Shown: one piece after another, positions 38,777 through 64,000 of the stretch
Position numbering within the stretch: the first letter of the stretch is position 1
Layout of the letters: each line of letters starts with the position of its first letter
Assembly: GCA_036395115.1 (NCBI GenBank)
Contig: DASWDU010000023.1
Span: forward strand, 1 to 64,000
Length of the DNA: 64,000 nucleotides
From: Thermoplasmata archaeon
Lineage (GTDB): Archaea > Thermoplasmatota > Thermoplasmata > RBG-16-68-12
Direction of reading: 5' to 3'
Position numbers and translations under genes: made by a program
The notes under the pieces: generated by a model
What the model was told of the DNA's origin: nothing
The model's database searches: none
The model's input: the letters and a program-made list of their open reading frames with translations, nothing else

Positions 38777-38804
38777 CAAGTTAACCTTGAACAAGGTTAA
38801 CTTG
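38777..38804. promoter_or_regulatory. Perfect 28-base palindrome, probable operator
   Basis: Two 13-base arms, CAAGTTAACCTTG and its exact reverse complement CAAGGTTAACTTG, are separated by AA. It lies 24-51 bases before the peroxiredoxin start at 38753 and 70 bases before leuB at 38874. It overlaps the expected TATA position of the peroxiredoxin gene, so binding of a dimeric regulator would be expected to block that gene. Confidence 0.75.
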
Positions 38805-60794: not shown

Positions 60795-61730
60795 GTGGAC
60801 GTCGGCCGGCGGACGTACGGCTACCTTGCAATCGTCCTTGCGGCGGTCCTGTTCGGCGTCTGGCCGAGCCTGTCGAAGCTCGTCCTGAATGAGGTCCACC
60901 ACCCGCTCGTCATCGCGTTCCTGGTCCAGCTCATCCCTGGGATCGCGCTCTCGCCAGCGCTCCGGGGCGTCCGGATCCGCCGACCGGACTGGCGGCTCCT
61001 CCTCTTCGGAGCCCTCGTCGGGTCCGTCGCCGGGCCGATCGTCTACTTCTATGGCCTCGACCGGACGACCGCGGCGAACTCCATCCTCCTGTCGAACAGC
61101 GAGTCCCTCTTCACGATCGTGCTCGCGTACGCCGTCCTGGGGGAACGCGCCACGCGACGCGAATACGTCGCGCTCGCCGGCATCGCGGTCGGCGCGTTCC
61201 TCGTGACGACCCAATTGCGTCTCGGCGACGTCCGATTCCTGGAGTTCCTCATCGGCAACGCGATGCTCGTGGCCGCCGCGGCGTGCTGGGGCGTGAGCAA
61301 CACCGTGAGCACGATCCTCCTCCGTCGGGTCAAGATCGTCCCGCTCCTCGCGACCCAGCTGCTCGTCGCCGCCGCCGTGCTCGCGCCGATCGTTCTGGTC
61401 GCCGGCGCGCCCCTCACGATCCCGCTCCCCATCGTGCCGATCCTCGTCCTCCTCTCCCTGAGCGCCGGCGGCATGTTCTCCGTGCTCTTCTTCTACGCGT
61501 TCCGCACGATCGGCGCGATGCGCACGGGAGCCGTCCTCCCGACGTCCGCGCTCTGGGGCATCCTCCTCGCCATCTACCTCTTCCCGAGCGAGACGTTGAG
61601 CGGGGTGCAGATCGTCGGCGGCGCCCTGATGCTCCTCGCCCTCGTGGCGTTCTACGTCCTGCGCGGTCCCTCGGAGGCCGAAGGCGAAACGTTGAAACCG
61701 GCCGCGTCGGATGGTCCCGATTCACCGTGA
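60795..61730 (+). CDS. EamA/DMT-superfamily transporter
   Basis: 311 residues, ten membrane helices in two EamA repeats (VLAAVLFGVWPSLSKLVL; AAAACWGVSNTVSTILL). DRTTAANSILLSNSESLFTIVLAY is the conserved helix 3-4 region. GTG start. Its stop overlaps the start of DNA ligase by 4 bases, coupling the two genes although their roles look unrelated. Confidence 0.87.
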   Translation: MDVGRRTYGYLAIVLAAVLFGVWPSLSKLVLNEVHHPLVIAFLVQLIPGIALSPALRGVRIRRPDWRLLLFGALVGSVAGPIVYFYGLDRTTAANSILLSNSESLFTIVLAYAVLGERATRREYVALAGIAVGAFLVTTQLRLGDVRFLEFLIGNAMLVAAAACWGVSNTVSTILLRRVKIVPLLATQLLVAAAVLAPIVLVAGAPLTIPLPIVPILVLLSLSAGGMFSVLFFYAFRTIGAMRTGAVLPTSALWGILLAIYLFPSETLSGVQIVGGALMLLALVAFYVLRGPSEAEGETLKPAASDGPDSP

Positions 61731-63340
61731 CCCCGACGACCTCGGACGAGACGCCGTTCGCCCGCCTCGCGGAACTGGCCCGGAAGCTCGAGGCGACGCC
61801 GAAGCGGCTGGAGAAGCGCGCGCTGCTGGCGGAATTCCTCCGGTCGCTCCGGAGGGACGAGGTCGCGCCCGCGGTCCACCTGATCGTCGGCCGGATCTTC
61901 GCGGAGTCGGATGCGCGCGCGCTGAACGTCGGCTGGGCGACGCTCAAGAAGGCGATGGCCGGGGCGAAACAGGCGACGCTGAATCCGCAGCCGCTCACGA
62001 TCCTCGACGTCTCCCGCGCCTTCGCGCAAGTCGCGGAGGCCCACGGGCCCGATTCGGTGAGGACCCGCCGGCGGATCCTCGGGTCCCTCCTCGGCCGCGC
62101 CTCCGAGGACGAACGGCACGTCCTCCTGAAGAACGTCTTCGGCGAGATGCGGATCGGGGTGAATGAGGGCGTCATGCTCGACGGGATCGCGGACGCCTCC
62201 GGGGTCCCTGCGGACGTCGTGCGGACCGCGCACATGTTCCTCGGCGACCTCGGCCTCGTCGCGGAGATCGCGCGGTTCGAGGGGGCCGACGGCCTGCGGT
62301 CCCGAGGCCTGCGCCTCCTGGCCCCGATGAAGCCCATGCTCGCGGAGATGGCGGTAGACCTCGACGACGTCCTGAAGGAGCACGGCGGCGCCACGGCGAT
62401 CGAGTACAAGCTGGACGGCGCGCGAATCCAGATCCACCGCCGGGGCGACGCCGTCCGAATCTTCAGCCGCAGACTGAGCGACGTGACGAACAGCCTCCCC
62501 GAGATCGTCGCAATCGCCCGCTCCTTCCTGGCCAGGGAGTTCCTCCTGGAGGGCGAGGTGGTCGCGATCGACCACGCGGGCAAGCCGCTCCCGTTCCAGG
62601 ACCTCATGCGCCGCTTCCGGCGCGTGCACGAGATCGCCGCGGCTGCGGAAGAAATCCCGTTGCGGCTCTACCTCTTCGACCTGCTCCACGTCGACGGGCG
62701 GACCCTGATTGACGAGCCGTACCGCGTGCGGTGGGAGCTCCTCGAACGCCTCGTGCCCGCCCAATATCTCACGGCCCGCCGAGTCGCACGGTCGAAGGAC
62801 GAGGTGGAGTCGTTCCTGAGAGAGGCGCTCGAGGCGGGCCACGAGGGGCTCATGGCGAAGCACCTCGAATCGACGTATTCCGTCGGAAAGCGCGGGAAGA
62901 AGTGGTTCAAGATCAAGCCCGCGGACCGCCTCGACATGGCGATCGTCGCGGCGGAGTGGGGGAGCGGTCAGCGGGAAGGCTGGCTCTCGAACTACTGGCT
63001 CGCCGTCCGGGATGAGAGGACGGGCGCGTTCCAGATGATCGGCAAGACGTTCAAGGGCCTAACCGACGCGGAGTTCGACGCGATGACGGATCGCCTGCGC
63101 AAGCTCGCGACATCGGAGGAGCGGTGGGGGTTCCACGTGCGGCCGGAGGTCGTCGTCGAGGTCGCGTACAACGAGATTCAGCGGAGCCCGCACTATCCGA
63201 GCGGGTTCGCGCTGCGCTTCGCGCGGATCGTGCGCATCCGGGACGACAAGGGGCCCGACGAGGTCGACACGTACGCGCGTCTGAAAGAATTGTACGGGAA
63301 GCAGTTCGAGCGGAAAGGCCGAGGGCCCGAGGAACCGTAG
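61727..63340 (+). CDS. lig: ATP-dependent DNA ligase
   Basis: 537 residues, GTG start overlapping the previous stop (GTGA). N-terminal DNA-binding domain (1-200), adenylation domain with catalytic Lys near 228 in IEYKLDGARIQIH, then EGEVVAID, HEGLMAKHLES and KKWFKIKP, and C-terminal OB-fold (IGKTFKGLTDAEF, VVVEVAYNEIQRSPHYPSG). This is the archaeal replicative ligase type. Confidence 0.95.
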   Translation: MTPTTSDETPFARLAELARKLEATPKRLEKRALLAEFLRSLRRDEVAPAVHLIVGRIFAESDARALNVGWATLKKAMAGAKQATLNPQPLTILDVSRAFAQVAEAHGPDSVRTRRRILGSLLGRASEDERHVLLKNVFGEMRIGVNEGVMLDGIADASGVPADVVRTAHMFLGDLGLVAEIARFEGADGLRSRGLRLLAPMKPMLAEMAVDLDDVLKEHGGATAIEYKLDGARIQIHRRGDAVRIFSRRLSDVTNSLPEIVAIARSFLAREFLLEGEVVAIDHAGKPLPFQDLMRRFRRVHEIAAAAEEIPLRLYLFDLLHVDGRTLIDEPYRVRWELLERLVPAQYLTARRVARSKDEVESFLREALEAGHEGLMAKHLESTYSVGKRGKKWFKIKPADRLDMAIVAAEWGSGQREGWLSNYWLAVRDERTGAFQMIGKTFKGLTDAEFDAMTDRLRKLATSEERWGFHVRPEVVVEVAYNEIQRSPHYPSGFALRFARIVRIRDDKGPDEVDTYARLKELYGKQFERKGRGPEEP

Positions 63341-63394
63341 CCGCCCGAGTAGTTTCACCCACCCCACCGGAACGGGCTTGGGCCCGCAGACGAT

Positions 63395-63414
63395 ATACCT
63401 CTACTTAGAGGTAT
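63395..63414. promoter_or_regulatory. 20-base palindrome over the promoter of the 63420 gene
   Basis: ATACCTCTA-CT-TAGAGGTAT, perfect 9-base arms. It overlaps GATATACC (63392-63399), the TATA-like box 21-28 bases before the ATG at 63420. A near copy lies at 63659-63676. It looks like an operator or an end of a mobile unit. Confidence 0.65.
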
Positions 63415-63419
63415 GAACG

Positions 63420-63671
63420 ATGGAGATTGGTTGTGGAGCGCGGATCCGAGACTTCGGCGGACGGCGGTACTTCTACTTCTGGCACTACGAACGCGACGAC
63501 GGACGGTCCTCGCGGAAGGAGGACTATATCGGCCGGGTCGAGTCCGCGCGGGGCCGCGACGAGCTCCTCCGGCGGATGGCCGCCTACCACCGGAAGGCCG
63601 AACAGGAGTTCGCCCGACGACGGGAGCGAATCGAGCGGCAGATCGTCCTCGCGGCCCATACCTCTGCTTAG
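63420..63671 (+). CDS. Small basic protein of unknown function, flanked by palindromes
   Basis: 83 residues. RIRDFGGRRYFYFWHYERDDG followed by RKEDYIGR resembles short integrase- or transposon-associated proteins with an aromatic YFYFWHYER strand; the C-terminal half is an Arg/Glu-rich helix (RRMAAYHRKAEQEFARRRER). No domain is firmly recognised. ATG start at TATA distance. The second palindrome covers its stop codon. DNA or RNA binding with self-control is a reasonable guess. Confidence 0.65.
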   Translation: MEIGCGARIRDFGGRRYFYFWHYERDDGRSSRKEDYIGRVESARGRDELLRRMAAYHRKAEQEFARRRERIERQIVLAAHTSA

Positions 63672-63676
63672 AGGTA
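63659..63676. repeat. 18-base near-palindrome at the end of the 63420 gene
   Basis: TACCTCTG-CT-TAGAGGTA, differing at one base from the copy at 63396-63413. It contains the TAG stop of the small gene (63669-63671) and lies just before the end of the transporter gene at 63682. Confidence 0.65.
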
Positions 63677-63681
63677 CGCCC

Positions 63682-64000
63682 TCACTCGACGTCCCGCGCG
63701 GCGATCGTCTCCCGCGTCCGCGCCCCCTGGCCCATGACGGTCAGGTAGATCCCCGCGAGGGCGAGCGCCCCGCCGATGCCGACGGCGATGCCGGGCGTCT
63801 GGCTGAGGAGGGCCCACGCGAGGAGGCTCGACCCGATCGGCTCGCCCACGAGGCTCAGGCTCACGACCGGCGCCGGTACCCACCGGAGGCTCCAGTTGTA
63901 CAGCGTGTGCCCGCCGATCTGCGGGATGACGGCCATCGCGAGGAAGAGGGCCATCTCCCGGGGCACATCTCCGGTCGGCGTGAGGCTCGCCCCCAACACG
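63682..64000 (-). CDS. EamA/DMT-superfamily transporter, C-terminal part
   Basis: At least 105 residues; the gene begins beyond the window. Four membrane helices with SLVGEPIGSSLLAWALLSQTPG, the conserved EPxxxxxxA motif of the last EamA repeat, and a basic cytoplasmic tail. Convergent with the small gene at 63420. Confidence 0.8.
   Translation of the reverse strand, partial: VLGASLTPTGDVPREMALFLAMAVIPQIGGHTLYNWSLRWVPAPVVSLSLVGEPIGSSLLAWALLSQTPGIAVGIGGALALAGIYLTVMGQGARTRETIAARDVE

Follow-up and report, generated by a model that had tools for sequence, protein, structure and literature searches.

Comparative sequence data make it likely that the mini-gene at positions 63420-63671 of the window, i.e. 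the whole stretch of 64,000 nucleotides that was analysed, belongs to a new protein family whose members bind DNA at 9-4-9 operators of their own and are autoregulatory, which is the best explanation of our observations. As nearly every family member exhibits a matching 22-base palindrome at its promoter, these proteins very probably act as regulators of their own and of other genes.

In agreement with the original prediction, the mini-gene is bounded by two nearly identical palindromes, whose 18-mers differ by a single base. The upstream palindrome, ATACCTCTACTTAGAGGTAT (63395-63414), is a perfect 20-mer inverted repeat except for the central CT and is located 6-25 bp before the ATG at 63420. 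The downstream palindrome, TACCTCTGCTTAGAGGTA (63659-63676), covers the stop codon as claimed, with the TAG (63669-63671) inside it. The open reading frame between both palindromes encodes 83 residues, and the left half of the downstream copy provides the codons for the C-terminal His-Thr-Ser-Ala. With up to three mismatches, the pattern occurs at two places in the window, both at the mini-gene, against a mean of 0.02 in shuffled sequences, so the pair is indeed unlikely to have arisen by chance. In the 2.40-Mb genome, eight exact TACCTCTNNTTAGAGGTA sites are present, including both window sites, plus several near-matches; with up to three mismatches, 13 matches per strand are observed, compared with 4-5 for the reversed control. 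The features of this locus are as follows.

61730..63340 (start approximate), + strand: ATP-dependent DNA ligase, the left neighbour, whose stop codon precedes the upstream palindrome by about 55 bp
63352..63372, + strand: GTTTCACCCACCCCACCGGAA element, about 22 bp before the palindrome; a shared GTTTCRCMCACCYCHCC element is found here and at other S1/S2 genes, about 20-25 bp before the palindrome; flanks aligned by eye
63394..63415, + strand: predicted upstream operator TATACCTCT-ACTT-AGAGGTATG, 9-4-9; the same site is found at -24 to -27 in 35 of 35 flanked S1 genes
63420..63671, + strand: 83-residue protein of the GCG...Y-x-YFWHYE family, subfamily S1, with a predicted three-stranded sheet and a long helix
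63657..63678, + strand: predicted downstream operator copy CATACCTCT-GCTT-AGAGGTACG; a recognisable copy lies exactly over the stop codon in 33 of 35 S1 genes
63682..64000 (continues beyond the window end), - strand: EamA-family transporter, the convergent right neighbour, given as context

The element at 63352-63372 is common to S1 and S2 genes at other loci and is not TATA-like.

With regard to the protein, eight paralogs are encoded in the host genome (G000), with 28-71% identity in the alignment, and ten residues are invariant among the nine members (G4, C5, G6, Y17, Y19, F20, W21, Y36, G38, and Y56). All 22 genomes of the archaeal family of the host carry 2-9 copies, which amounts to more than 110 relatives; these genomes are soil and sediment MAGs. 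Among 400 sampled genomes of the class, strong matches outside the host's family were obtained only in five genomes, from other families of the same order; one further genome from the order and three from the class gave short or weak matches. This order, RBG-16-68-12, has been described as Candidatus Angelarchaeales (PMC9038741). None of the families in Pfam, NCBIfam, and PHROGs recognises the proteins; DUF7565, HSA, and phrog_34056 gave weak matches only, below the cut-off or scattered. No recombinase or transposase domain was found in these three collections, and no HTH, RHH, or AbrB domain was recognised. The viral contigs and plasmids searched contain no relatives, and a sequence search of the PDB gave nothing significant apart from one match (E=7e-5) to a designed repetitive helical protein, in which no single stretch is significant. 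The literature that we searched describes no archaeal family of this kind. The family is previously unnamed, could be assigned to no known family, and, weak matches aside, is restricted to one order in the genomes sampled.

The AlphaFold2 model, built with 54 sequences, is confident (pLDDT 93.4) and exhibits the order strand-strand-strand-long helix. Foldseek searches with this model against the PDB and viral models gave no match at E<=0.001. Solved and viral structures thus offer no significant counterpart to the fold, so that the sheet is a predicted DNA-binding surface. A weak relative (L145, in G028) constitutes the N-terminal region of a larger protein, which we take to be Fic-like, a hint that larger proteins may contain the small fold as one of their domains. 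At another locus (L322, G465 contig 23, 31495-32702), a family gene seems to be split into two parts that are separated by about 1 kb, while the outer ends retain their palindromes, which looks like an insertion into the gene.

Palindromes accompany the whole family. In the host genome, each of the nine genes has an inverted repeat that is no farther than about 65 bp from its start codon, with differing cores. Among the 115 flanked family genes, the upstream palindrome is significant by shuffling (p<=0.05) in 102, and several of the 13 others have weaker recognisable sites. The original prediction had pointed to relatives that keep the gene without either palindrome as the contrary outcome; what we observed instead is that 93 of the 115 family genes carry upstream palindromes in which no fewer than 8 of the 9 arm pairs match, compared with 16 of 410 control genes (Fisher p=4e-64). 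Among these 16, several are neighbour genes with a family site inside their upstream window. The usual site is 22 bp long, with two 9-bp arms around a 4-bp core, and typically reads GTTA-N5 ... N5-TAAC. Both the half-site and its distance to the start codon are almost constant within each subfamily:

S1: (G)TTACCTCT, at -24 to -27
S2: YYTACCTCT, at -35, three at -25
S3: GTTATCGTT, at about -58
S4: GTTAACCTT, at about -36
S5: GTTATAGTT, at about -36
S6: GTTACCCTT, at about -36
S7: GTTACCACC, at -22
S8: GTTATCTAT, at about -36
S9: GTTATCCTT, at about -36
S10: site at about -36

A second copy at the 3' end is found in S1, most S2 and S3, S8, S9, and S11-S13, and is absent in S4, S6, and S7. The distances between proteins and between half-sites are correlated across 18 cluster representatives (Mantel r=0.60, p=0.0002), a value inflated to some degree as the representatives are related, the helix alone also correlating with the half-site (r=0.35). 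Among the single segments tested, the correlation is highest for strand 3, and residues 32 and 34 are among the most informative columns. With regard to the members from other families of the order, which were not used in forming the palindrome rule, 10 of 11 exhibit an upstream palindrome with 7-9 of 9 pairs, at -19, -23, -36, or -60, which in several of them is repeated downstream. In one genome (L265 and L266, G002 contig 10, 11193-22099), six S1-type palindromes are clustered around a single S1 gene in a stretch of 11 kb, mostly at a spacing of 2-3 kb.

The position of these sites relative to the promoter is informative. In 482 ordinary genes of the loci analysed, TATA-like motifs are most frequent 30-35 bp before the ATG, which indicates that transcripts are mostly leaderless. 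The sites at -36 thus coincide with the TATA box, and the S1 site is found between this box and the ATG. The claim that the upstream palindrome covers the promoter is an inference; this palindrome is located 6-25 bp before the ATG, and its first base is immediately downstream of where the TATA box usually lies. Six subfamilies have their palindrome over the TATA position, which makes autorepression the likeliest function, and the S1 operator, from its placement, would be expected to block initiation. The palindromes could alternatively work as hairpins in the transcript, in translation control or at 3' ends, the protein being an RNA-binding autoregulator. Palindromes that have 7-9 bp arms and a 4-nt loop would fold in this way, the S1 hairpin would put AGAGGU before the start codon, and S1/S2 sites do lie near gene 3' ends. 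However, with promoters that look leaderless, most upstream sites would be untranscribed, and many S4 sites lie in divergent promoters. Mismatches in the arms, read on the sense strand, exhibit no excess of G-U over A-C, the latter being at least as frequent. Nearly all sites of family genes have RRRY cores in one orientation, but with respect to the gene, the core of S1 is oriented unlike that of the other subfamilies, and the gene-less sites examined, all with RRRY cores in one orientation (63/63 S4-type, 49/49 S1/S2-type), point in both directions about equally, with about 50:50 on the plus strand. A-C mismatches that are not rarer than G-U and cores in either direction fit recognition as DNA rather than RNA. 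After these tests of mismatch type, core orientation, and promoter position, we regard the hairpin explanation as disfavoured and very improbable.

Sites without an adjacent family gene are dispersed in the genomes. S1/S2-type sites number 1-18 per genome (0-1 for the reversed-pattern control) and S4-type sites 0-17 (control 0). The original prediction had raised the possibility of a common genome-wide repeat unrelated to the gene; further copies do occur in the genome, though as conserved sites with the same specificity. The arms of gene-less sites have an identity of 0.98 at orthologous junctions, against 0.60 in the 30-nt flanks and 0.55 for random sequence, which identifies these sites as maintained elements. 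The two types differ in context (p=0.001), the contexts being approximate since genes were called by our own codon-usage procedure. Among the 49 gene-less S1/S2 sites, 17 are flanked by convergent genes and 7 by divergent ones, whereas only a quarter of the two kinds of space is convergent (p=3.5e-6); these sites lie mainly in intergenic regions past stop codons, and such a preference for gene ends is unlike what a simple promoter regulon would predict. S4-type sites (5 convergent, 19 divergent) are distributed as the background predicts. One of them is present in the window:

38780..38801 (extended palindrome 38778-38803), + strand: gene-less site of S4 specificity, GTTAACCTT-GAAC-AAGGTTAAC, in the divergent promoter between peroxiredoxin and isocitrate/isopropylmalate dehydrogenase genes

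Further GTTAACCTT-RRRY-AAGGTTAAC sites of the host genome are located at C4:6900, C16:83156, C31:19183, C31:28190, and C30:47201, and its S4-type sites adjoin genes for Ku and an ATP-dependent ligase, MutY / 8-oxoguanine glycosylase, a KaiC-like ATPase, a diphthamide-synthase-like protein, and ThiF/ThiS. S4-type promoter sites recur before the same genes across genomes, including Ku (four genomes), diphthamide-synthase-like (five), MoaB-like, and KaiC-like ATPase genes, among others. S4-type sites possibly define a repair/redox regulon conserved in several relatives. Binding of S4 proteins to the gene-less sites is suggested by the shared half-site; the cores are mostly AAAC, compared with AAGT at the S4 gene's own site. 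S4-type sites are also present in genomes where no S4 gene was detected (e.g. G013 and G014), which may reflect genome incompleteness or recognition by another regulator. That all solo palindromes are relics of lost genes was rejected for most of them, because sites with no gene in any relative examined stay conserved at orthologous junctions; for a few loci, this origin is retained.

The original prediction had proposed to look for empty-site loci; several loci with a single palindrome and no gene were found. S1 occurs at four loci at least, with the same palindromes, and occupied S1 loci also exist in a gene-less state with exactly one palindrome:

thiolase/radical-SAM locus: gene-less with one palindrome in G000 and G009
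the window's own ligase/EamA locus: gene-less with one palindrome in G020
FtsX locus: gene-less with one palindrome in G007
L101 locus: gene-less with one palindrome in G006
L044 locus: palindrome only in five genomes, gene only in G004

The loci reduced to a single palindrome where relatives have palindrome-gene-palindrome include L298, L252, L288, L280, and L004. The thiolase/radical-SAM locus of G000 and the FtsX locus of G007 lack the gene that relatives have there but keep the upstream element with one palindrome, which points to deletion between two direct repeats, for which no dedicated enzyme is needed. The pattern at L044 could represent gene gain. The two-state pattern is real, and self-mobility is not required to account for it.

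The original prediction left two readings side by side, a protein that binds both sites and controls itself, or palindromes that mark the ends of a very small mobile unit. Self-control is strongly supported by comparison: the fixed distance of the palindromes in each subfamily, their covariation with the protein, and their overlap with or abutment to the TATA box or start all suggest that the protein controls its own gene via these sites. For the mobile unit, one would suppose that a palindrome-gene-palindrome cassette enters or leaves an existing palindrome by protein- or host-catalysed recombination at the 18-22 bp site, as could be read from the single-palindrome versions of occupied S1 loci, the presence of S1 with the same palindromes at several loci, and the asymmetry of the 4-bp core. 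Yet each subfamily is found at the same orthologous loci across the genus, the S1 tree mostly tracks the locus (with weak support), and the mobile reading is disfavoured because the loci are fixed and syntenic. The searches recovered neither a recombinase or transposase domain, although an unfamiliar catalytic fold is conceivable, nor viral or plasmid relatives; no transposon-type target-site duplication was seen by eye in the compared flanks. In addition, the upstream element kept in G000 and G007 suggests loss through direct repeats, and solo sites are conserved like functional elements. We therefore consider mobility improbable, although several loci do occur in two states. REP/RAYT systems, in which a gene is flanked by cognate palindromes, suggest a domesticated transposase that spreads its own extragenic palindromes. 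The same layout, several protein/palindrome subfamilies, and gene-less extragenic copies are found here; however, the Pfam search revealed no HUH/Y1 transposase domain in this protein of about 80 residues, S1/S2-type copies number about 1-18 per genome, which is not a high copy number, and the sites are bare 22-bp palindromes with positions conserved as for regulatory sites, which makes such an origin hardly credible. According to PMC3116915 and PMC8266576, REP/RAYT (TnpA-REP) palindromes are extragenic and tied to an associated protein. Finally, further copies in the genome would be expected of a chance or generic repeat with no link to the gene, but this has a negligible probability in view of the window expectation, the occurrence of the family in all 22 genomes, the protein covariation, and the recurrence in out-of-sample members from other families.

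For the preferred reading, that of autoregulatory DNA-binding proteins, the observed association of sites with genes, the covariation, and the position, conservation, and contexts of the sites lead us to infer the following mechanism. A predicted homodimer would read the 9-bp half-sites of its subfamily's own 22-bp operator with the three-stranded sheet and, by binding over or beside the TATA box or transcription start, would repress its own promoter. The operator at the 3' end may strengthen repression by looping, or may shield the convergent neighbour from read-through. Away from its own gene, the same protein would act at further, dispersed sites. Those of S4 specificity sit in promoters, some of which belong to DNA-repair and redox genes; those of S1/S2 specificity lie mostly past stop codons and are enriched between convergent genes, where a bound protein could form a roadblock or boundary. 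A stronger version, which we consider rather unlikely, is that S1/S2 proteins, together with their 22-bp sites at convergent junctions, make up a dedicated boundary or roadblock system (a sequence-specific bidirectional terminator or insulator), whose own gene is punctuated by the same sites at both ends, the two-state loci then reflecting a palindrome-gene unit that is gained and lost there like a cassette.

The family offers a natural series of protein/DNA-site pairs, with about a dozen specificities on one small scaffold in an uncultured archaeal lineage, so that a protein-DNA recognition code becomes directly testable. It also provides a candidate regulon with genes for end joining and base-excision repair in archaea, and prompts us to ask which role protein-binding sites play between convergent archaeal genes.

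Compared with known systems, the 22-bp target of I-CreI-like homing endonucleases is also 9 + 4 + 9 and is read by a beta-sheet, as predicted here; in contrast to these enzymes, the family protein is far too short, no LAGLIDADG motif was recognised in it, and its sites are intact on both sides of the gene. AP2/ERF and arm-type integrase N-terminal domains have three strands followed by a helix, the same order of elements as in our model. One member gave a weak Arm-DNA-bind_3 match (E=3.5), and for the family no significant sequence or Foldseek match to an AP2 or arm-type integrase domain was obtained; unlike these domains, the protein stands alone, its helix is much longer, and its sites are palindromic. 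Archaeal autoregulators of the Lrp family, of the MarR/ArsR-type wHTH, AbrB/SpoVT, and ribbon-helix-helix classes are small proteins with palindromic operators at their own promoter and dispersed regulons. The cognate palindrome at the family's own promoter, which covaries with the protein, resembles this arrangement, although the predicted order is strand-strand-strand-long helix and the searches recognised no HTH, RHH, or AbrB domain. By analogy, the family would therefore work like known autoregulators, from which it differs by its restriction to one order in our sample and by the second operator copy at the 3' end, a double-site layout that is unusual.
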